From positions 1 to 45,580 of the forward strand of contig CAMCFN010000034.1 in NCBI GenBank assembly GCA_945874145.1: 45,580 nucleotides of DNA, read 5' to 3'. The notes beneath the pieces were generated by a model, which saw only the letters and a list, made by a program, of their open reading frames with translations, was not told where the DNA came from and did no database searches. Position numbers and translations under genes: made by a program. The stretch's first letter is position 1. Every line of letters starts with the position of its first letter. Below are positions 138 to 24,364 of this stretch, piece after piece. Source of the DNA: Akkermansia muciniphila (lineage in GTDB: Bacteria; Verrucomicrobiota; Verrucomicrobiia; Limisphaerales; SXTU01).

Positions 138-197
138 TTACACCGGCAACTTTTCGAGAGGGTCCTGTTCGTCGGCGTTCTGTTTTGGTTGGTTCAT
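138..197 (-). pseudogene. tnsC: truncated tnsC start (19 codons)
   Basis: An ATG at 197-195 overlaps the tnsB stop codon by 4 bp (ATGA), the same coupling seen between tnsA and tnsB, so translation of a third tns gene is expected here. The frame runs only 19 codons and ends at TAA (138-140). Its last residues, DPLEKLPV, resemble the short proline-leucine motif near the N-terminus of TnsC proteins (NPxxxLP type, recalled from the family). No AAA+ Walker motif follows before the window edge. I infer that tnsC was cut off by deletion, insertion or frameshift just after its start. Alternatively this is an unrelated short peptide. Only 137 bp remain before the window edge, so the remainder of the gene cannot be examined. 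Confidence 0.55.
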
Positions 198-2386
198 GGC
201 TTCAGTTGTTTGTTCAGCATGGCCCACTTGCTGGCCACCTTACTGGTGCCAGTTGAATTTGAATTCGGTGCCGTAGCCACAGCGGGGCTCGGCGCGGGCG
301 GCACACCCACGATCGCTTGGGTTGTAGCGGCCTGCGCCTGAAGTTCCAGCAGCCGTTCAGCCGTCTTGGCTTCCTCCATCCTCTTCGTGCTGGGCGCACC
401 ACCACCTGTGGCTGCCTTGGTGAGCTTCGTGGCCTGCTTGATCGCCGCCTGCGTGCTCGCGTTGGCCGTCACCCGCAACTGCACGTCTTCGTTCTTGGCG
501 GCCCGGTCACTCTCCCGCTTCGCATCCAGGTAGGCAGTCAGTTCGGGCCAGGCCAAGCCCGTTGCCCACGAGTCAGCGGACGTCAAACCGCACACGTCCA
601 CTTGGTCCCCGAGCAGGTAGATTCGGTTCACCGCGCCGGGGTCGAAGCTGCATTGCACGGAGCGCACCGCATTGTGCCGGACCGTCGCAAACCATTCCTC
701 GCGCATGGCCCGCGCACAGGTGTAATGCACTCCCCGGAAACACAGGCCCTTGGGCTGGATGGTGCCCTTGTCGCTGGGCAGCAGTGCCAACCGCACCCAG
801 GCGGGGTCATGCGTGAGCATCGCCGCACGGGGCAGCCCCCAGGCCCATAACTTGTTCGGACGCGGCTCCACATGGTCGGCGATCATTTCCGTGGTGCGGA
901 GATACCCCGCCAAATAGGAGGCGTTGTAGGCCAGGATGGACTGGACCAACACCTTCTTGAACTCCGGCAGCGTGAAGACGGCATCCTTGCGGTAGTCTCG
1001 TTCCCCGCGTTCCTCACCATCGTAGCGGATGGCTCCAGGCAGCCAGTTGATCGTCATCTGGTTGAACGTGTGGAAGGCCCGCTCCACCAAGCCCTTCAGG
1101 TCCGGTCGGTACGCGGGCGCATTGTCCACCCGGACACCCAACTTGGATGGAAGCTGATCCGCCATGCCACTGAGCAGCTCACCCCGGTCCGCGTACAGGT
1201 TGAGCGGCAGGTCACGCGCCGGCCACTGGTCAGGCGTGATGGTGATGCCCAGTTCCGCGCAGAACTCCACCTTGTCGCTGAATGCGTTCCACACCGCCAT
1301 GGTTGCAGCGTTGTAGCCAGTGTTGTCAGACGTCACATGCACGCCGGTAATCAGCCGGCTATACACATCAACCACGTAGTAGATCATGGGACGGCCCACC
1401 ACCAGGGAGCGGTCCAGGCTGCTCACTATGTGCAGGTCCGCCGTCGTCGCATCAATCATGGCATACTCGCCCACCGCAAGGGCGCTCTTGGACTGGTCAC
1501 CCAGCACCGCCCGATGGTTGCGAGCCACGTACGCCGCGCCCTTGCGCTCCCTCAGGGACGAGAGTTTCGTGTGTTTCTGCTGGTAGTGGCGCATGAACTG
1601 CGCGAAGGACGGCCGCTGCTCGGCGGGCTTCAAGATCGGCGTCAACTCGCCGTCCTTCTCCACAAATCCGGAATTGTAATGGTCCCCCAGCATCCGTTCG
1701 TAAGTCAGGCTGAGCGGGAGCTTGTCCTCCTTCAGGTAATAGCGGTCTATGGCATCCTCGAAGTGGACGCGCATCACCTCGGTCACATTGATACCCACCT
1801 GGCCCTTGCCCGTCACGGGACGCCCCAGTTTCACCGCGCCGGGCTGGTGCGGCTTGCCGAACCCACCGCACTTGTTGAACATCGGCTGCAGGGCTTCCCG
1901 CATCTGTCCGCGTTGCCAATAACGGCGCAGGCGCTTGTAGAGCGTGGACACGTTCACTTCATGCCGGGCGGCCGCCGCCTTGACCAAGGGGCCGCTCTCG
2001 TCTGGCCAGAGGATTCGCTGGTCCGGTGCCTCCACCAAGTCGCGGATCGACGCCCACGCCTGATCCCGTAGTTCCCGCTGTTTGGGGGTCAGGGCTTCCT
2101 CCCGGCGCAGTTGCGTCATCAGATGGTCACGTTCCAGCACCTGAAGGTCGCCAGCCGCCATCGCCTTTGCCAAGTCGGCCAGCGGATACTCCACCGGCCA
2201 GCCCACATTGGGGCTGTCCACGGAAATGAGAAACCACGACGCGCCGCCGGAAGCACCGGCGGCCCGGCAGGCCAGCAGTCGATACAGCCGCCGTTGCCCG
2301 GCATCCATCCATTGGAGCAGGGCGTTGCGCCGCAACGTGGGCGTGGCGGGCGTAGCAGGCGTGAGATGGGTTGCGGTGTCGCTCAT
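194..2386 (-). CDS. tnsB: Tn7-like transposase subunit TnsB (DDE integrase)
   Basis: A 730-residue protein of the TnsB/Mu-transposase class of RNase H-fold recombinases, which bind the transposon ends and carry out 3' strand cutting and joining. The catalytic triad is visible: D312 (in AMIDATTAD), D400 (in LYADRGE) and E435 (in KGLVERAF), with 34 residues between the second Asp and the Glu. The N-terminal 200 residues look helical and include an HTH-like stretch (VNVSTLYKRLRRYWQRG, about 145-160). The C-terminal about 100 residues are Ala/Thr/Lys-rich, as expected for the tail that contacts TnsC. The start codon overlaps the tnsA stop by 4 bp and the stop overlaps the next ATG, so these genes are translationally coupled. 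The length is close to Tn7 TnsB (about 700). The triad is intact, so the enzyme could be active if a TnsC partner exists. Confidence 0.93.
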   Translation of the reverse strand: MSDTATHLTPATPATPTLRRNALLQWMDAGQRRLYRLLACRAAGASGGASWFLISVDSPNVGWPVEYPLADLAKAMAAGDLQVLERDHLMTQLRREEALTPKQRELRDQAWASIRDLVEAPDQRILWPDESGPLVKAAAARHEVNVSTLYKRLRRYWQRGQMREALQPMFNKCGGFGKPHQPGAVKLGRPVTGKGQVGINVTEVMRVHFEDAIDRYYLKEDKLPLSLTYERMLGDHYNSGFVEKDGELTPILKPAEQRPSFAQFMRHYQQKHTKLSSLRERKGAAYVARNHRAVLGDQSKSALAVGEYAMIDATTADLHIVSSLDRSLVVGRPMIYYVVDVYSRLITGVHVTSDNTGYNAATMAVWNAFSDKVEFCAELGITITPDQWPARDLPLNLYADRGELLSGMADQLPSKLGVRVDNAPAYRPDLKGLVERAFHTFNQMTINWLPGAIRYDGEERGERDYRKDAVFTLPEFKKVLVQSILAYNASYLAGYLRTTEMIADHVEPRPNKLWAWGLPRAAMLTHDPAWVRLALLPSDKGTIQPKGLCFRGVHYTCARAMREEWFATVRHNAVRSVQCSFDPGAVNRIYLLGDQVDVCGLTSADSWATGLAWPELTAYLDAKRESDRAAKNEDVQLRVTANASTQAAIKQATKLTKAATGGGAPSTKRMEEAKTAERLLELQAQAATTQAIVGVPPAPSPAVATAPNSNSTGTSKVASKWAMLNKQLKP

Positions 2387-3171
2387 AGGGTCAGCAGTCG
2401 CAGGGGTTGGTCAACATTCAGGGGCACGCTGAAATCCACGGGCCAGCGGCGATGGGTAAGCAGGTGGTACACCAACTTGAGGGTGGCCCCGGCTTTGAGC
2501 TTCAGGGCCTGATCGGATTCGATGAAGAGCGCCAACAGGGGCACACCCGTCGTCAAACGCGGTGTCAGGTAGTCGTAAACGGCCTCCACCGCGTTTGCAT
2601 GCGGGTGTAGCGTGTCCACGTGGAAGAACGGGTGTATCCGCCGGACGTTGCGGACCAGCACCGGGTCCAACTCCCGCTCCGTCACCAGCTTCCACGGCAC
2701 CCCACGCACCTTCCAGTACGCGGCCTCGATCTGCAGTTTCTCCACGGTCCGTGGGTTTTTCAGCACGGCGAAGGGCTTGACCTGATAGGCCGTCTGCTTG
2801 CCGTCGGCCCACGTCACCACCACGTCCGAACTCATCACCTTGGGCCGACCCTTCACCAGCGGATGCCGGAACCCAAGCCCCGCCGCAATCTGTTGCGTCT
2901 CGTCCAGCTCCAGGTTGTATTGCTCGCGGATGTCCGCCACGTGCGGGTTCCATTCCAGCGTGTACACCCAGGCCAGCTCCAGCCAGCTCAGGGTGCTCAC
3001 CACGCGGTTCTTCGACCGCCAGCCCCGCCCCCGGCTGGAATTACCCAGCGAGGGCACGTCCCGGGGCTGGTGCCACGGGCGGTAATCCTCCTGGTGGCCC
3101 TGCCCACGGCCCTCTTTGAGGAGGCGGCGCACCGTGTTCGGATTCGATTGGTCAACGCGTGATTTGCTCAT
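2383..3171 (-). CDS. tnsA: Tn7-like transposase endonuclease subunit TnsA
   Basis: A 262-residue protein matching TnsA, the restriction-endonuclease-like subunit that cuts the 5' strands at the transposon ends so the element moves by cut-and-paste. The catalytic residues appear at E65 (LELAWVYTLEW), D116 (KVMSSDVVV) and K132 (AYQVKPF). This agrees closely with E63, D114 and K132 of Tn7 TnsA. The C-terminal region (about 165-262) is the expected helical part that contacts TnsC. It is the first gene of a leftward tnsA-tnsB-(tnsC) operon. The ATG at 3171 is preceded by 65-bp repeats that resemble the sites at the transposon end, so autoregulation by TnsB, as in Tn7, is plausible but unproven. 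Confidence 0.93.
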   Translation of the reverse strand: MSKSRVDQSNPNTVRRLLKEGRGQGHQEDYRPWHQPRDVPSLGNSSRGRGWRSKNRVVSTLSWLELAWVYTLEWNPHVADIREQYNLELDETQQIAAGLGFRHPLVKGRPKVMSSDVVVTWADGKQTAYQVKPFAVLKNPRTVEKLQIEAAYWKVRGVPWKLVTERELDPVLVRNVRRIHPFFHVDTLHPHANAVEAVYDYLTPRLTTGVPLLALFIESDQALKLKAGATLKLVYHLLTHRRWPVDFSVPLNVDQPLRLLTL

Positions 3172-3172
3172 C

Positions 3173-3555
3173 TACCCTTTATATGCTGAGTCAACGGCAC
3201 GTTAATTTGTAATAAAGTGGCGCGAGGCTCACTTTTCTTTGTAGTCACCCGTCGCCGGGCGGTCGATTCACGGCACAACGCCGCGTTCGTACCTGTCTAG
3301 TGCTACCCAGGCCGCCATTTCGTTTGCTCGCACGCCGCACTTTGTACACGGGATGCGCCGGGCTTACCAAATCGCCCAGCCAAGGGCAACCCGGGAACCG
3401 AGGGCCACCACGGCCCCCACCCATGATTAAGTCAGTCAACCGCCCGTTAATTTGTCGAAACGTGGCGCGGGGCCGCTTTTCCGCGTGCCCCCACCTTAAT
3501 AAGTTGAGTCGACGGCACTTTATTTTGAAGGAATCGGCGATTTCTGACGATTTTC
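3173..3555. repeat. three degenerate 65-bp direct repeats upstream of tnsA (related to TnsB-site repeats)
   Basis: Copies lie at 3173-3237, 3417-3481 and 3491-3555. The first two match at 40 of 49 aligned positions from their common agtcaac. All three end in ttttc. Each contains a core (acggcacgttaattt, accgcccgttaattt, acggcactttatttt) similar to the tggcgactttatta repeats at the right end. The first copy also contains an opposed copy (gtaataaagtggcgc). The otherwise gene-free stretch 3172-3703 holds these repeats; the overlapping small ORFs there show no recognisable protein. They may be TnsB-binding sites that regulate tnsA, or remnants of ends from earlier insertions at the same attTn7 site. 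Confidence 0.65.
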
Positions 3556-3703
3556 CCGTGCGAGGGCTGCATGCCCGCACAGGCCCTCATGTACAAGAGC
3601 TAGTCAGAAGGGCGACCAGGCGAAGATTTCTGCGGAAATCTTTGGGTGTAAGCGGCGAGGGGCGGATTGCGACGGTTGTGGGGACGGACTAACGCAACCA
3701 TTT

Positions 3704-4477
3704 ATGGAACTCAAACCAAAACACCGCGGGAAATGCTACTTGTGCGGGGTCAGCGTTGATTCCACAAAGGACCGCGACCACGTCCCACCCAAGAACCTAT
3801 TTCTGCCGCCACGCCCGAATAATTTAATCACAGTGCCCTGCTGTGCGCCCTGTAATCGCAACTTCAGCAAGTTGGATGAACGTTTTAGAGTTTTTGTTAG
3901 CCTAGCAGCAAACGTCTCTGAAGCAGGACGTCGTATCAGGAAAGACAAGGTATTTGGCAGCACATTCCAAAGATCGCCATTTTTGAGGCAGCAAACGGCT
4001 CAAAACCTTGCCGACGTCGTCATTCTGACACGGAATGGTCCGGAGATTTGGTCGACTCATCAAGCACCCGCTGCCGAATGCAAGGAATTCCTCATACGAC
4101 TGACCAAGGGCATGCTGACTCACTATTACCCGGGCTTTGATTACTCCAAACTCACATTTGAGGTAAAGCCACCCGCCCAATTTATCGAAGACCTCCCATC
4201 ACGCATAGCATTGCCTGGAGTGCACAAAGACCATCGTGGCACCGGTGTTTTCCGTTTGTGGCGTGAACTTGCTCCTGACAACCAGGAATACGGGTTTTGG
4301 GTTTATCAGTTCTACGAAGCGGTGACGTTTATGGTTGTGCACAGTCCATCACGCGAAACGCCTCCGAACGTGAAGGCGTGCTCGACCAACAAGGGGAACC
4401 CGCCAACGGCAGAATCTGCTGGCAACGACACGGGGACTACCTCTACCGCGCCCTCTGGCCCGCCGCCCGTCGCGTAG
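3704..4477 (+). CDS. HNH-type nuclease-like protein (transposon cargo)
   Basis: A 257-residue protein. The N-terminus has a compact HNH/zinc-finger layout: C11-x2-C14 (CYLC), D25-H26 (DRDHVPPKNLF), then C47-x2-C50-N (CAPCNRNFSKLDE). This is the pattern of HNH endonucleases in which a CxxC pair holds zinc and the DH pair lies at the active site. Residues 60-215 are not recognised; they hold a YPGFDY segment and a WVYQFYEA-like hydrophobic stretch. The last 40 or so residues are Pro/Thr/Ser-rich and overlap the next gene in another frame, so the true end of the conserved domain is probably near residue 215. Base composition is visibly lower in GC than the chromosome to the right, supporting acquisition by transfer. 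It may be a DNA-targeting effector or simply a homing-type nuclease; no substrate can be inferred. Confidence 0.72.
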   Translation: MELKPKHRGKCYLCGVSVDSTKDRDHVPPKNLFLPPRPNNLITVPCCAPCNRNFSKLDERFRVFVSLAANVSEAGRRIRKDKVFGSTFQRSPFLRQQTAQNLADVVILTRNGPEIWSTHQAPAAECKEFLIRLTKGMLTHYYPGFDYSKLTFEVKPPAQFIEDLPSRIALPGVHKDHRGTGVFRLWRELAPDNQEYGFWVYQFYEAVTFMVVHSPSRETPPNVKACSTNKGNPPTAESAGNDTGTTSTAPSGPPPVA

Positions 4478-4980
4478 CCGCCAACCGACTCCAACGCCAG
4501 CTCCCCGGTGAAATCGACGACATCGCCAGCCAGGGCATCACGGTGGCCTACTTCTACCGGCCACGCATCCGCACCCTGGAACGCCTCCAACGATTCACCA
4601 CCGGCACGGTGGACAAGCTGGCCATCAGCCGGCTCCGGGCGCACCTCGCCGACAAACGGGGCCACTTGGTGACCGGCAGCCTCGACGCCCTACCCGAAGC
4701 CACCCAAGCCGTCAGTGCAACGAATGGGGCCGGCCAGCGCACGGTACAGGAAACCGCCGACCTACGGCGCGTGCTGGCGGACCTACAGACGGGATTGCAC
4801 CCCACGATCCGGCTGGTGCTGGCGGAGCACTACGGCGCGGACCTCACCCAGGCCGAAATCGCCCGCCGGCATCGGCTGCCGTTGGGGACCGTGGCGGGTT
4901 ACCTCAAGCGCGGGGTGGAGCGGCTACGGAAAGCGGTCCAAACCAACCAATTGGAACCACGGCTGCGCGAGTTCCTGTAA
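4378..4980 (+). CDS. ECF-type sigma factor-like protein (transposon cargo)
   Basis: A 200-residue protein if begun at GTG 4378; the open frame extends back to an ATG at 4297, so the start is uncertain and it overlaps the preceding gene in a different frame. Residues 20-95 resemble sigma region 2 (YLYRALWPAARRVAANRLQRQL, then a helical Arg-rich stretch). Residues 125-188 resemble region 4, with a clear HTH: LHPTIRLVLAEHYGADLTQAEIARR followed by LPLGTVAGYLKRGVERLRKAV. No anti-sigma factor is recognised next to it, though the following membrane protein could play such a part. I infer that it activates transcription of element genes. It could instead be a DNA-binding protein that only shares the region 4 fold. 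Confidence 0.7.
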   Translation: MLDQQGEPANGRICWQRHGDYLYRALWPAARRVAANRLQRQLPGEIDDIASQGITVAYFYRPRIRTLERLQRFTTGTVDKLAISRLRAHLADKRGHLVTGSLDALPEATQAVSATNGAGQRTVQETADLRRVLADLQTGLHPTIRLVLAEHYGADLTQAEIARRHRLPLGTVAGYLKRGVERLRKAVQTNQLEPRLREFL

Positions 4981-5015
4981 GCGATTCAGCACCGATTCCG
5001 ACTGTTTCTAGGGCT

Positions 5016-6323
5016 ATGCCACTACCACTTCTTATCGCCGTGATCGCCATTGCGACGATTCTCTGCGGATGTGTGGCTTGGCTGCTGGTGCGGGAGATCA
5101 TCGGTAGCTTTCGTGCATCGACGCCAAGACCATTGAGGCCGAGTCCCACGCCGGCACCCGCGAGCCACACCAAGGCGTTCATCATTTTCCTCCTAGCGCT
5201 CGGCATCGGCATCCCACTCGCGCCGCTCTTGCGGATGGGGGCAGCTAAAGTGTGGCGGGAAAGCCCAGCGTTAAGGCGTGCCGTCCTCCTGCACTGCTTG
5301 CCGGCTAAAGTCCTGCCTCCCATGCCATACGCCGAGGAAGTCGAGGATTTCACAAAGAAATGGACTACTCGTCATCACCAACTGACAGAAGAACTTCGTC
5401 AGGTGGGCGAACGGAAAGTAGAAATGAACGTGCAACGCCAACGCCTAGAGGCCGAGGTAGCTCAAGAACTAAACCGTCGGGAAGAACTGCTCCGTAAAGA
5501 GATGGCCGAGATGGCGGACGCCTGGGGCCGCTATCTCATTTCCGAGCGGTATTCCCGGTTCGATTTACAAGACCCGGTCAATGCAGAAATGAGACGGCAG
5601 TTCATACACGAAGTGCGGCAGCTTCCTAAATACGCCAACTTTACGTTTGAAGATCGCCCTGTCGAAAACCTCAGCCACTTCTGGCGGAGATGGGGTTCTA
5701 ACCCGGAAACTATCAATACCTCCATAACGAGCTGGCTACGCTACGAGCGTGACGTTCGCCAGCTGTGCAGATTGGGAACCGTAGAGGAGACATTCATGGT
5801 GCGGCATATGCTCCCCGCCACCGTCCCCCCAGACCCAACCCTGCGGGAACTGATGCAAGCCGTAGCCGCCGAGGGGCCAGCATTTACGGATAGAGAATTC
5901 TGGAATCAGAGCCTCATTGGTTTCCTGATCCACAGCCTCATTGCAATCGTCGCAACGCGGATATTCTGGTTCGCCAGCGGCAGCCTCAACCCCCTGCACA
6001 AACTCGCACTCACAGGCATCCCCGTAAGCCTCTACGGAGTGGCTACCTTCTCGCTGGCCGCCGTCGGATGGCTCATCTTGGGAACGATCGGTCTCGTCGT
6101 CTACTGCCTCCCCTCTTTCATTGCCTTCCATCGACAACACACCTACCGGTTCCCACTCCTCGCCATCAACCTCCTGCTCGGCTGGACGCTCCTGGGCTAC
6201 ATCGCCGCCATGGTCTGGGCATGCTGGCCGAAAACGTCCGGCCCCAGTCTGCACCTCCAAGTCACGCTGGACCGCAAGAAGACCGAACCGAAGGACGAGT
6301 CCGGTCAAAACCCACCGCCGTGA
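5016..6323 (+). CDS. membrane protein with superinfection-immunity-like C-terminal domain (transposon cargo)
   Basis: A 435-residue membrane protein. Predicted segments: TM1 about 4-26, TM2 about 54-74, a charged coiled-coil-like region about 108-165, a soluble middle to about 295, then several C-terminal segments (about 299-320, 331-352, 352-372, 381-403). The end (GWLILGTIGLVVYCLPSFIAF, then RFPLLAINLLLGWTLLGYIAAMVWACW) strongly resembles the superinfection immunity (T4 Imm-like) family, whose small two-helix members block phage DNA entry. Here the domain is the tail of a much larger protein, which is unusual. The gene begins 35 bp after the sigma-like gene and stops 18 bp before the transposon end repeats. 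An anti-phage role for the cargo block is an inference from this domain and its location in a Tn7-like element. Confidence 0.7.
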   Translation: MPLPLLIAVIAIATILCGCVAWLLVREIIGSFRASTPRPLRPSPTPAPASHTKAFIIFLLALGIGIPLAPLLRMGAAKVWRESPALRRAVLLHCLPAKVLPPMPYAEEVEDFTKKWTTRHHQLTEELRQVGERKVEMNVQRQRLEAEVAQELNRREELLRKEMAEMADAWGRYLISERYSRFDLQDPVNAEMRRQFIHEVRQLPKYANFTFEDRPVENLSHFWRRWGSNPETINTSITSWLRYERDVRQLCRLGTVEETFMVRHMLPATVPPDPTLRELMQAVAAEGPAFTDREFWNQSLIGFLIHSLIAIVATRIFWFASGSLNPLHKLALTGIPVSLYGVATFSLAAVGWLILGTIGLVVYCLPSFIAFHRQHTYRFPLLAINLLLGWTLLGYIAAMVWACWPKTSGPSLHLQVTLDRKKTEPKDESGQNPPP

Positions 6324-6341
6324 GCGGATGCTCAAGTCCAG

Positions 6342-6406
6342 TGGCGACTTTATTAACCGTTGGCGACTTTATTATCTGTTGGCGACTTTATTAAGGGGGG
6401 ACAACA
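6342..6406. repeat. Tn7-like right end: three 15-bp TnsB-type sites at 19-bp period and terminus
   Basis: The sites tggcgactttattaa (6342-6356), tggcgactttattat (6361-6375) and tggcgactttattaa (6380-6394) are spaced exactly 19 bp apart. They are followed by ggggggacaaca, giving a TGTTGT terminus when read inward. Tandem short TnsB sites ending in TGT/ACA are the standard design of Tn7-family ends. The terminus is set at 6406, though 6403 (ACA) is an alternative. Confidence 0.85.
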
Positions 6407-6465
6407 ACCCGACACTCGCCGTGGCGCGCTATTCCACGGTCACGCTCTTGGCGAGGTTGCGGGGC
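6407..6465 (-). other. attTn7 site (glmS 3' end and insertion point)
   Basis: The last glmS codons (PRNLAKSVTVE and TAG stop at 6429-6431) are the conserved stretch that TnsD binds in Tn7. The transposon terminus at 6406 is 22 bp downstream of the last base of the stop codon, matching the known insertion distance of about two helical turns. The 5 bp acccg (6407-6411) is the likely target duplication. Confidence 0.82.
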
Positions 6466-8303
6466 TTGTCCACGTCGCAGCCGCGGGCCACGGCGATGTA
6501 ATAGCTGAGGAGCTGTAGCGGGATGACGGCGAGGAGCGGATGCAGCGGCTCCCAAGTCGCCGGGAGATAAATGACATCCTCGACCTTCTCCTTGATGCGC
6601 TCGTTGCCCTCGGTGGCCAAGGCGATGATCGGGCCCTTGCGCGCCTTAATTTCCTCCAGGTTGCTGAAGGTCTTCTCGTAGAGCGCGTCGGTGGGGCAAA
6701 GGATGACGGTGGGGGTCTTCTCGTCGATCATCGCGATGGGACCATGCTTCATCTCGGCGGCGGGGTAGCCTTCCGCGTGGATGTAGGAAATCTCCTTGAG
6801 CTTGAGCGCGCCTTCGAGGGCGACAGGGAAGTTGTATTGCCGCCCGAGGAAGAAGAAGTCCTCGGCTTGGGCATACTTGAGGGCGATGCGCTTGATCTCC
6901 TCGCTCTGATCGAGGATACGCTGAATCTGATCAGGGATGGCTTCGAGGGCCTTGATGATCTGGCTGCCGCGCCGGTTCGAGAGCATCCGGATGCGGCCCA
7001 TCATCAACGCAAACATCGTCAACACGCTGACCTGGCTGACGAAGGCCTTGGTGGACGCGACGCCAATCTCCGGCCCGGCGTGGAGATAGATGCCGCCGTC
7101 GGCCTCGCGGGCGATGGTGCTGCCCACGACGTTGCAGATGGAGAGGACTTTGTGGCCGCGCCGACGGGATTCGCGCAGGCCGGCCAGCGTGTCCGCCGTC
7201 TCACCGGACTGGGTGATGACGAGGCAGAGAGTGTTCTTCTCGATGGGGGCGTTGCGGTAGCGGAACTCGGAGGCGTATTCGACCTCGACCGGGATGTGCG
7301 CGAATTCCTCGATGAGATACTCGCCCACGAGCGCCGCGTGCCAACTCGTGCCGCAGGCGGTGATGACGATCTGATCAACGTCCCGCAACTCGGCAGTGGT
7401 CATGTTCAACCCGCCGAATTTCGCGGTGCCGTCCTCCGCATCCAGACGGCCACGGATGGCGTTTTGCACGGTCTTGGGTTGCTCGAAGATTTCCTTGAGC
7501 ATGTAGTGCGCGAACGTCCCGCGCTCGGCGGCATCGGCGGCAAATTCGATTTGCGAGAGCTGGAAGGACGCCACCTCGTTGCCGAGGGAATCCATCTTGA
7601 ACTTGTCGGGGAACAGCGTGACGACGTCGTAGTCCTTCAAGTAAATGACCGTGCGTGTATGGCTGACGATGGCGCTGGCGTCGCTGGCGAGAAAGTGCTC
7701 GCCCTCGCCGACGCCAACGATGAGCGGGCTGCCACGCCGCGCGCCAACCATGACACCGGGGTGATCCGTGCAGATAACGCCAATGCCGTAGGTGCCGATG
7801 ACTTCGCGGAGCGCGTTCATGACGGCTTGGGCCAGAGGGTGAACGCCCTCGCCCGTCCAGGCTCCCTTGCCAGAGTCAACCAGCGCGGCGTAGTGGTGGC
7901 CGATAAGGTGAGCGAGCACTTCGGTATCCGTCGCGGACTTGAAGGTGTCACCCGCCTTGAGGAATCGGTCCTTCAAAGTGTCGAAATTCTCGATGACGCC
8001 ATTGTGGACGACGGCGATTTTTCCGGACTCGTCCAAGTGCGGGTGGGAGTTCTCATCGGTGGGCGGCCCATGCGTGGCCCAACGCGTGTGCCCCATGCCT
8101 ACTTGCCCGTAGATGGGGTTGGACTGAACGAGCTTGGCGAGCCCCTCATCGATTTTGCCCTTCTTCTTGCGCGTGGTGAGCTCCCGGTTTTGCAGCACCG
8201 CGACGCCGGCAGAATCGTAACCGCGGTATTCGAGGCGACGGAGACCCTCGATGAGAATCGGCGTGGCCTGCTGTTTTCCGATGTAACCAATGATGCCGCA
8301 CAT
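6429..8303 (-). CDS. glmS: glutamine-fructose-6-phosphate aminotransferase
   Basis: A 624-residue, full-length GlmS. It transfers the amide nitrogen of glutamine to fructose 6-phosphate to give glucosamine 6-phosphate, the entry step to UDP-GlcNAc, peptidoglycan and LPS. The N-terminal glutaminase begins with the catalytic Cys2 (MCGIIGYIG) and has EYRGYDSAG and HTRWATHG motifs; two SIS domains fill the second half (VITACGTSWHAALVGEY, then QSGETADTLAGLRESRRRGHK). The C-terminus LAKSVTVE is the conserved end. The leader between glmS and the divergent glgC is only 97 bp, with no room for a glmS ribozyme of normal size. Bases just before the ATG read cacctcctt, so no Shine-Dalgarno sequence precedes the start. 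The gene carries the transposon attachment site at its 3' end. Confidence 0.97.
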   Translation of the reverse strand: MCGIIGYIGKQQATPILIEGLRRLEYRGYDSAGVAVLQNRELTTRKKKGKIDEGLAKLVQSNPIYGQVGMGHTRWATHGPPTDENSHPHLDESGKIAVVHNGVIENFDTLKDRFLKAGDTFKSATDTEVLAHLIGHHYAALVDSGKGAWTGEGVHPLAQAVMNALREVIGTYGIGVICTDHPGVMVGARRGSPLIVGVGEGEHFLASDASAIVSHTRTVIYLKDYDVVTLFPDKFKMDSLGNEVASFQLSQIEFAADAAERGTFAHYMLKEIFEQPKTVQNAIRGRLDAEDGTAKFGGLNMTTAELRDVDQIVITACGTSWHAALVGEYLIEEFAHIPVEVEYASEFRYRNAPIEKNTLCLVITQSGETADTLAGLRESRRRGHKVLSICNVVGSTIAREADGGIYLHAGPEIGVASTKAFVSQVSVLTMFALMMGRIRMLSNRRGSQIIKALEAIPDQIQRILDQSEEIKRIALKYAQAEDFFFLGRQYNFPVALEGALKLKEISYIHAEGYPAAEMKHGPIAMIDEKTPTVILCPTDALYEKTFSNLEEIKARKGPIIALATEGNERIKEKVEDVIYLPATWEPLHPLLAVIPLQLLSYYIAVARGCDVDKPRNLAKSVTVE

Positions 8304-24287: not shown

Positions 24288-24364
24288 CGGGGCGTAGCGT
24301 AGCTTGGTAGCGCGCTTGGTTCGGGTCCAAGAGGTCGTGAGTTCAAATCTCACCGCCCCGACCA
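24288..24364 (+). tRNA. tRNA-Pro (anticodon CGG), CCA encoded
   Basis: The acceptor stem pairs cggggcg (24288-24294) with cgccccg (24354-24360), with discriminator A and encoded CCA at 24362-24364. The anticodon stem cttgg/ccaag encloses the loop ttcgggt, giving anticodon CGG (reads CCG, proline). D-arm (gcttggtagcgc) and T-arm (gtgagttcaaatctcac) are complete. The permease-like gene begins 25 bp downstream, so no large insertion sits at this tRNA's 3' end. Confidence 0.96.

Follow-up and report, generated by a model that had tools for sequence, protein, structure and literature searches.

A Tn7-like right end beside glmS carries a probable mosaic of unrelated passenger genes

The window analysed here is the entire contig CAMCFN010000034.1 (C34; 45,580 nt), from a genome of 4.58 Mb in 157 contigs that is 82% complete. 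A Tn7-like transposon has inserted downstream of glmS, and three rightward genes at 3704-6323, near the left edge of the contig, lie between its right end and tnsA. They encode an HNH-type protein, an extracytoplasmic function (ECF) sigma factor and a 435-residue membrane protein with a domain of the T4 Imm type. An earlier note had placed these three open reading frames (ORFs) correctly and had read them as one self-contained defence module. We conclude instead that the strip is probably a mosaic of unrelated passenger genes. This view is carried by the lack of linkage among the three genes in the searched genomes, by a break in coding signature near position 4360 and by the loss of the usual neighbour of the sigma factor. 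The readings weighed below are not all mutually exclusive, and their probabilities are not required to sum to one.

Linkage of the cargo genes and the HNH/sigma junction

The features of the strip are as follows.

3704-4477, plus strand: HNH-type ORF, 257 residues; the conserved two-domain part covers 3704-4363 (residues 1-220)
4364-4477, plus strand: tail of the HNH ORF, which probably reads through into the sigma gene, with a switch in codon-position GC
4378-4980, plus strand: ECF-type sigma factor gene, 200 residues from a likely GTG start at 4378 (the first start codon gives 4297-4980)
5016-6323, plus strand: gene for the 435-residue membrane protein, with two N-terminal and three C-terminal hydrophobic stretches
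6072-6281, plus strand: T4-Imm-type domain, residues 353-422 of the membrane protein

We compared the window with 196 genomes of its order and 387 of its phylum, two sets that overlap slightly and each include the window genome. The HNH protein has relatives in 7 of 195 other genomes of the order and in 19 of 386 others of the phylum, and also in records whose titles name Verrucomicrobiaceae, Deltaproteobacteria, Planctomycetia, Chloroflexi and others; relatives of the membrane protein, all matched at its C-terminal region, occur in 4 of 195 and 4 of 386. Searching other genomes for the same block, as the earlier note had suggested, gave a result that goes against a module: both kinds of relative are found together in the window genome alone (0/195 and 0/386 others). 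Because both are rare, joint genomes are expected by chance at only ~0.1-0.2 per set, and their absence signifies no association rather than avoidance. The only genome common to the relatives of the sigma factor (there a weak match) and of the Imm-type protein, G143, has them on different contigs, and none of the 4 plasmid records with an Imm match is among the 5 with an HNH match.

The neighbourhoods of the HNH relatives point the same way. In the 21 loci with a called HNH ORF (of 23 given, in 20 distinct places), nothing resembles the other proteins of the window. Some of the loci do have neighbours in common, among them near-identical or related records (L061/L107, L113/L116 and L103/L104); a further neighbour match, between L105 and L106, reaches 31% identity over 277 residues, and weak pairs farther from the HNH gene link L062 with L108 and L107 with L114.

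The junction between the first two genes is marked by a change in codon usage. GC at the three codon positions is 0.56/0.42/0.53 in the HNH core and 0.54/0.72/0.77 in the tail of the HNH ORF; read in the sigma frame from 4378 it is 0.74/0.48/0.81, and the coding signature of the sigma gene begins close to the GTG codon. Past residue 216 the window ORF continues for 41 residues, compared with 0-37 in 18 relatives. Read-through into the sigma gene thus probably accounts for the final ~40 codons of this ORF. Since the codon-position GC of the tail differs from that of the core, we place a putative junction near 4360, which would resemble a recombination scar. GC at third codon positions (GC3) is 0.53 in the HNH core, 0.67 in the membrane protein gene and 0.81 in the sigma gene, so that the earlier description of the strip as lower-GC DNA fails for the sigma gene.

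The sigma assignment, which the earlier note had made in looser terms, appears sound: Sigma70_r4 matches region 4 above its cut-off (1.3e-7; 31.4 bits versus 24.1), and TIGR02937 matches positions 4-164 just under its own (7.8e-11; 41.9 bits versus 42.9), with no region 2 match in the Pfam scan. Relatives are present in 41 of the 196 order genomes, including the window's own, the closest being 37% identical. The closest known group is that of ECF sigma factors of the order with an MNSMNDERFF-type partner. Among the 11 loci examined of the 19 returned from outside the window genome, a MNSMNDERFFDLAMK-type membrane protein lies directly downstream of the sigma gene in 10 (the exception is L054). 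It has ~240 residues and, in most copies, one hydrophobic helix, and may be an anti-sigma-like partner; a Pfam scan of two copies gave nothing above cut-off. The MNSMNDERFF-type partner gene is missing beside the window's sigma gene. The 435-residue membrane protein, considered as a replacement, is unrelated to the partner (hhalign probability 0.7%), despite its same place in the gene order. As an observation on the order itself, the pair of ECF sigma and MNSMNDERFF-type membrane-protein genes recurs at L052, L053, L055-L060, L067 and L068.

The HNH assignment is likely, though less firm than those of the sigma factor and the Imm-type domain. Of the earlier HNH label, the part that held is the match to phrog_2118 'HNH endonuclease' (3.9e-6; a profile with no curated cut-off) together with a cysteine/His core that relatives keep, while the Pfam model HNH_5 scored 16.9 bits, below its cut-off of 27.5. 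In an alignment of 19 sequences C11, C14, H26, P28, P29, C47 and D58 occur in every row; C50 and N51 are present in the window protein and are not invariant. The closest relatives, 35-41% identical over ~200 residues, are orphan HNH_5-like proteins with the pattern CYLCG...RDHVPP...NLITVPCC..CN, from which the window copy differs in extending ~40 residues into the next gene.

An AlphaFold2 model of residues 1-220 has a mean predicted local distance difference test (pLDDT) score of 91.3, with its last strand at 207-215 and the fold complete at residue 215, ahead of the tail; it gave no match at E<=0.001 to solved (PDB) or viral structures. Because this confident model lacks a PDB match at that threshold, the second domain (window 3896-4351, residues ~65-216) may be undescribed. 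RnlA, the top PDB row, is not a meaningful fold relative (TM 0.19, root-mean-square deviation 18.5).

We therefore favor a history, from the linkage and junction results, in which the cargo genes would have arrived separately by recombination. An ECF sigma gene, severed from its usual partner, would have been joined to a solitary HNH-family gene, which would thereby have lost its 3' end; a separate membrane-protein gene would have come to adjoin the sigma gene. The sigma factor would be a solitary regulator, perhaps non-functional, and the HNH protein a putative stand-alone DNA-binding or nicking protein. In the membrane protein, the Imm-like two-helix domain would serve as an inner-membrane anchor and the coiled coil would present the remainder.

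The membrane protein and its Imm-type domain

Between its N-terminal and C-terminal hydrophobic stretches, the 435-residue protein has a coiled-coil-like segment (~113-170) followed by a middle part without assigned relatives. The identity of its Imm-type tail is clear: PF14373 (Imm_superinfect) matches over all positions 1-42 (4.6e-14; 52.5 bits versus a cut-off of 27.9), phrog_1039 'immunity to superinfection' matches at 6.9e-16, and BLASTP aligns residues 353-422 with residues 13-82 of the 83 in T4 Imm (E 8e-10, 27% identity over 70 residues). T4 Imm is itself a PF14373 member (58.2 bits). The earlier note had recognised this domain and had made it too short, at about 50 residues rather than ~70. 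Unlike T4 Imm, the domain here is the C-terminal part of a longer, host-encoded protein with coiled-coil-like and unassigned parts, and any shared function is putative.

Matches are confined to the C-terminal region. No relative of the part before residue ~330 was found in the order and phylum genome sets, and the 4 matching plasmid records align at residues 349-405 only. Pattern scans with the full protein, which can reach close relatives only, found none in viral_contigs and 17 matches in genome_contigs, of which 0 were confirmed. PF14373 exceeds its cut-off in 6 of the 196 order genomes, including the window's own, versus 0 of 14 control genomes. The single-sequence model of the membrane protein (pLDDT 52.6) was too poor, and was compared with no structure library.

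It is possible, if on balance doubtful, that the membrane protein acts by itself as a superinfection-exclusion protein encoded by the host. The coiled coil and middle part would then sense or bind a phage or membrane component, the Imm domain would block phage DNA entry as in T4 and the two neighbours would be bystanders. Nearly the whole of T4 Imm, whose annotation has the DNA of a superinfecting phage stay in the periplasm, aligns to the tail, and residues 301-435 have matches in 803 phage records at E<=0.01. Translated bacterial PF14373 matches in the phylum, on the other hand, are short hairpins, two proteins with a cysteine-rich, zinc-ribbon-like start (G014 and G006) and two coiled-coil fusions, and these architectures also fit a general membrane hairpin or anchor.

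The nearest architectures are PF14373 proteins of G518 (276 residues) and G361 (215 residues), which, like the window protein, have a charged coiled-coil-like stretch ahead of a C-terminal Imm-like hairpin. They differ in being shorter and in having an N-terminal signal-like stretch, and are matched at the hairpin region only. On contig C4 of G361 an ABC-3C system precedes the gene (L150:4600-5247) by ~2.3 kb, with matches to CTD10 (6e-6, just under cut-off), MC6 (1.6e-13) and a DUF2326 ATPase (4.6e-37; PADLOC candidate PDC-M68B, 4.8e-100). A phage integrase gene (2.2e-17) stands between the two, all within L150:1-5247; by these profile matches the locus is a mobile, defence-like setting of the nearest architecture, which favors exclusion by a single gene, as do the Wadjet and BrxL genes at the glmS site of a relative (below). 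Against it, two G518 neighbours tested against PADLOC gave nothing above noise, and no full-length relative of the window protein was found.

A PADLOC-DB scan of the three cargo proteins likewise found no defence profile above noise: the HNH protein matched only PDC-M01B at E>=0.0019, and the sigma factor and membrane protein had zero matches. Our literature search found nothing that linked 'superinfection immunity protein' with 'defense island'. From its domain match, the membrane protein is the sole candidate for single-gene defence in the cargo. We consider it quite unlikely that it is a single-gene host blocker of phage DNA entry, with a T4-Imm-type hairpin fused to a coiled-coil sensor and carried as cargo at glmS, and that the G518 and G361 proteins belong with it to a family of exclusion proteins so far unrecognised. 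Should such an Imm fusion block phage DNA entry, bacteria would have taken over phage superinfection exclusion as a sensor-linked membrane defence.

The Tn7-like end and the glmS site

The earlier assignment of the strip to the cargo of a Tn7-like element stands. The features that bear on it are listed below.

6338-6403, minus strand: Tn7-like right end, three 19-bp sites and the tip GGGGGGACA
6404-6408: ACAAC, candidate 5-bp target duplication, adjoining the tip; contig C123 has this pentamer in front of a TGT tip
6429-8303, minus strand: glmS, the insertion landmark; the product is 96% identical to GlmS of G126, G581 and G077
2383-3171, minus strand: tnsA endonuclease gene (Tn7_TnsA-like_N 2.4e-18, TnsA_C 1.1e-4)
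194-2386, minus strand: tnsB-like transposase gene, 730 residues, near the left edge of the contig and overlapping the end of tnsA
3174-3228 and 3419-3473: two 55-nt direct repeats, 75% alike, upstream of tnsA

The three 19-bp copies of the right end, at 6342-6398, start TGGCGACTTTATTA, and the tip GGGGGGACA ends in ACA at 6403, which leaves 25 bases to the stop codon of glmS. The TnsB-like protein has weak integrase-core matches only, both below cut-off (Mu-transpos_C 0.0061; an IS481 transposase model 2.5e-5). A search of the genome for TniQ (PF06527) was blank, as were its controls, and tnsC and tnsD are not on the window contig, no search aimed at TnsC having been made.

In Tn7 itself, tnsA adjoins the right end and insertion is at attTn7 beside glmS; the window cargo, unlike that arrangement, is placed between tnsA and the right end. 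With the Tn7-like transposons of Benler et al. (2021) the window has in common TnsA, a TnsB-like gene, a right-end array of ~20-bp repeats and variable cargo, as well as the distance of the tip from the glmS stop and the candidate 5-bp duplication. That paper (PMC8649781) describes right ends located upstream of the transposase, multiple ends produced by adjacent insertions, and Wadjet and BREX among the cargo.

On contig C123, ACAAC sits between a right-type tip and a TGT tip, which is followed by related sites; this arrangement suggests, without proof, that the element has its left end on C123. The pentamer is at both candidate ends, on two unjoined contigs, and the region downstream of glmS in same-genus genomes is too variable to provide an empty site. 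In its own right, C123 has several Tn7-like end arrays within 400 bp (L006:899-1280), including a ~309-bp stretch flanked by two outward-pointing tips that, from its ends, looks like a miniature non-autonomous insertion.

Another reading, which we hold to be unlikely, takes the strip from 3.5 to 6.4 kb as a small non-autonomous Tn7-like element in its own right, inserted between glmS and an older tnsAB element, so that the cargo would not belong to the tnsAB transposon of the window. The 55-nt repeats, which may be TnsB sites or what is left of a decayed end, suggest another end near tnsA, and the crowded arrays of C123 and the multiple ends reported for adjacent insertions (Benler et al., PMC8649781) would fit. 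However, inspection by eye of 3172-3704 revealed no clear left tip or matching ACAAC, and a site profile built from the right-end and C123 sites found no strong site there. Outside the right end, whose own sites score 27-32 bits as part of the training set, the top score in the whole window is 12.1 bits at position 3209 beside tnsA. This is at chance level, being close to the next matches (11.7 bits) and far from the true end.

Defence genes do occur at this location in a same-genus genome. On contig C63 of G175, a three-copy array of the Tn7-like end type with ~20-bp spacing begins 25 bases past the glmS stop, with two weaker copies ~200 bases on. Beyond it are JetD, JetC, JetB and JetA of a Wadjet system (best E 2.2e-61, 3.9e-142, 2e-11 and 3.5e-16), then a DUF4011 helicase matching PDC-S37 and Hhe, and then BrxL (ATPase domain 4.5e-124). 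Judged from these profile matches, at least one relative does carry defence genes as cargo beside glmS. This raises the prior for the window cargo and is no evidence for the function of that cargo. A further ORF at the G175 loci (L141:1066-14000, L147:1048-4061) is, by eye, maybe a PglZ fragment, with no Pfam match. The other five same-genus glmS regions tested have no such array; that of G077 has, by eye, a tip of the form TGTCCCCC...TAAAG.

Weighing a mosaic cargo, and minor features

Several points weigh against a mosaic: (i) The three genes share one direction with short gaps between them, much like an operon, inside one transposon end. (ii) The rarity of both HNH and Imm relatives gives the co-occurrence comparison low power. 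(iii) Genes adjacent to HNH relatives show weak matches to each other (L061/L109, 48 residues, 46%; L112/L114, 89 residues, 31%), neither of which resembles a window protein. (iv) The HNH ORF is open up to its stop, so its overlap with the sigma gene could be natural, and in two phage HNH relatives the tail approaches that length, with 34 and 37 residues. (v) G175 has genuine defence systems at its glmS site.

A genuine three-gene defence module, in which the sigma factor would switch on the nuclease and a membrane sensor, draws on point (i) and is very improbable, because in the material searched the genes are linked neither in genomes nor in plasmid records nor in HNH neighbourhoods, and it is further weakened by the damaged-looking HNH/sigma junction and the missing sigma partner. 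As it stands, the strip is a further example of the changeable cargo of Tn7-like elements, and a warning that neighbouring genes, three in this case, can wrongly be taken for a single system.

Two minor features of the window complete the picture. An Rfam scan of the window, C123 and C127 at gathering threshold gave a tRNA at 24288-24361 as its sole match. A repeat lies between tnsA and the HNH ORF:

3577-3646, plus strand: ~70-bp repeat found at three places in the genome, the others being on C123 (L006:688-742) and C127 (L007:2306-2374)

We found no identity for this repeat, and its 21-bp core, with <=2 mismatches allowed, is in no other of the 196 order genomes. The copies, ~55-70 bp long, have hairpin-like halves, and the one on C127 is near what appears, by eye, to be a broken sulfatase gene. 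Beside glmS on contig C29 of G105, another same-genus genome (L140:1336-4536), a set of ORFs resembles by eye an RNA ligase, an HD protein, a nucleotidyltransferase and an HNH protein.

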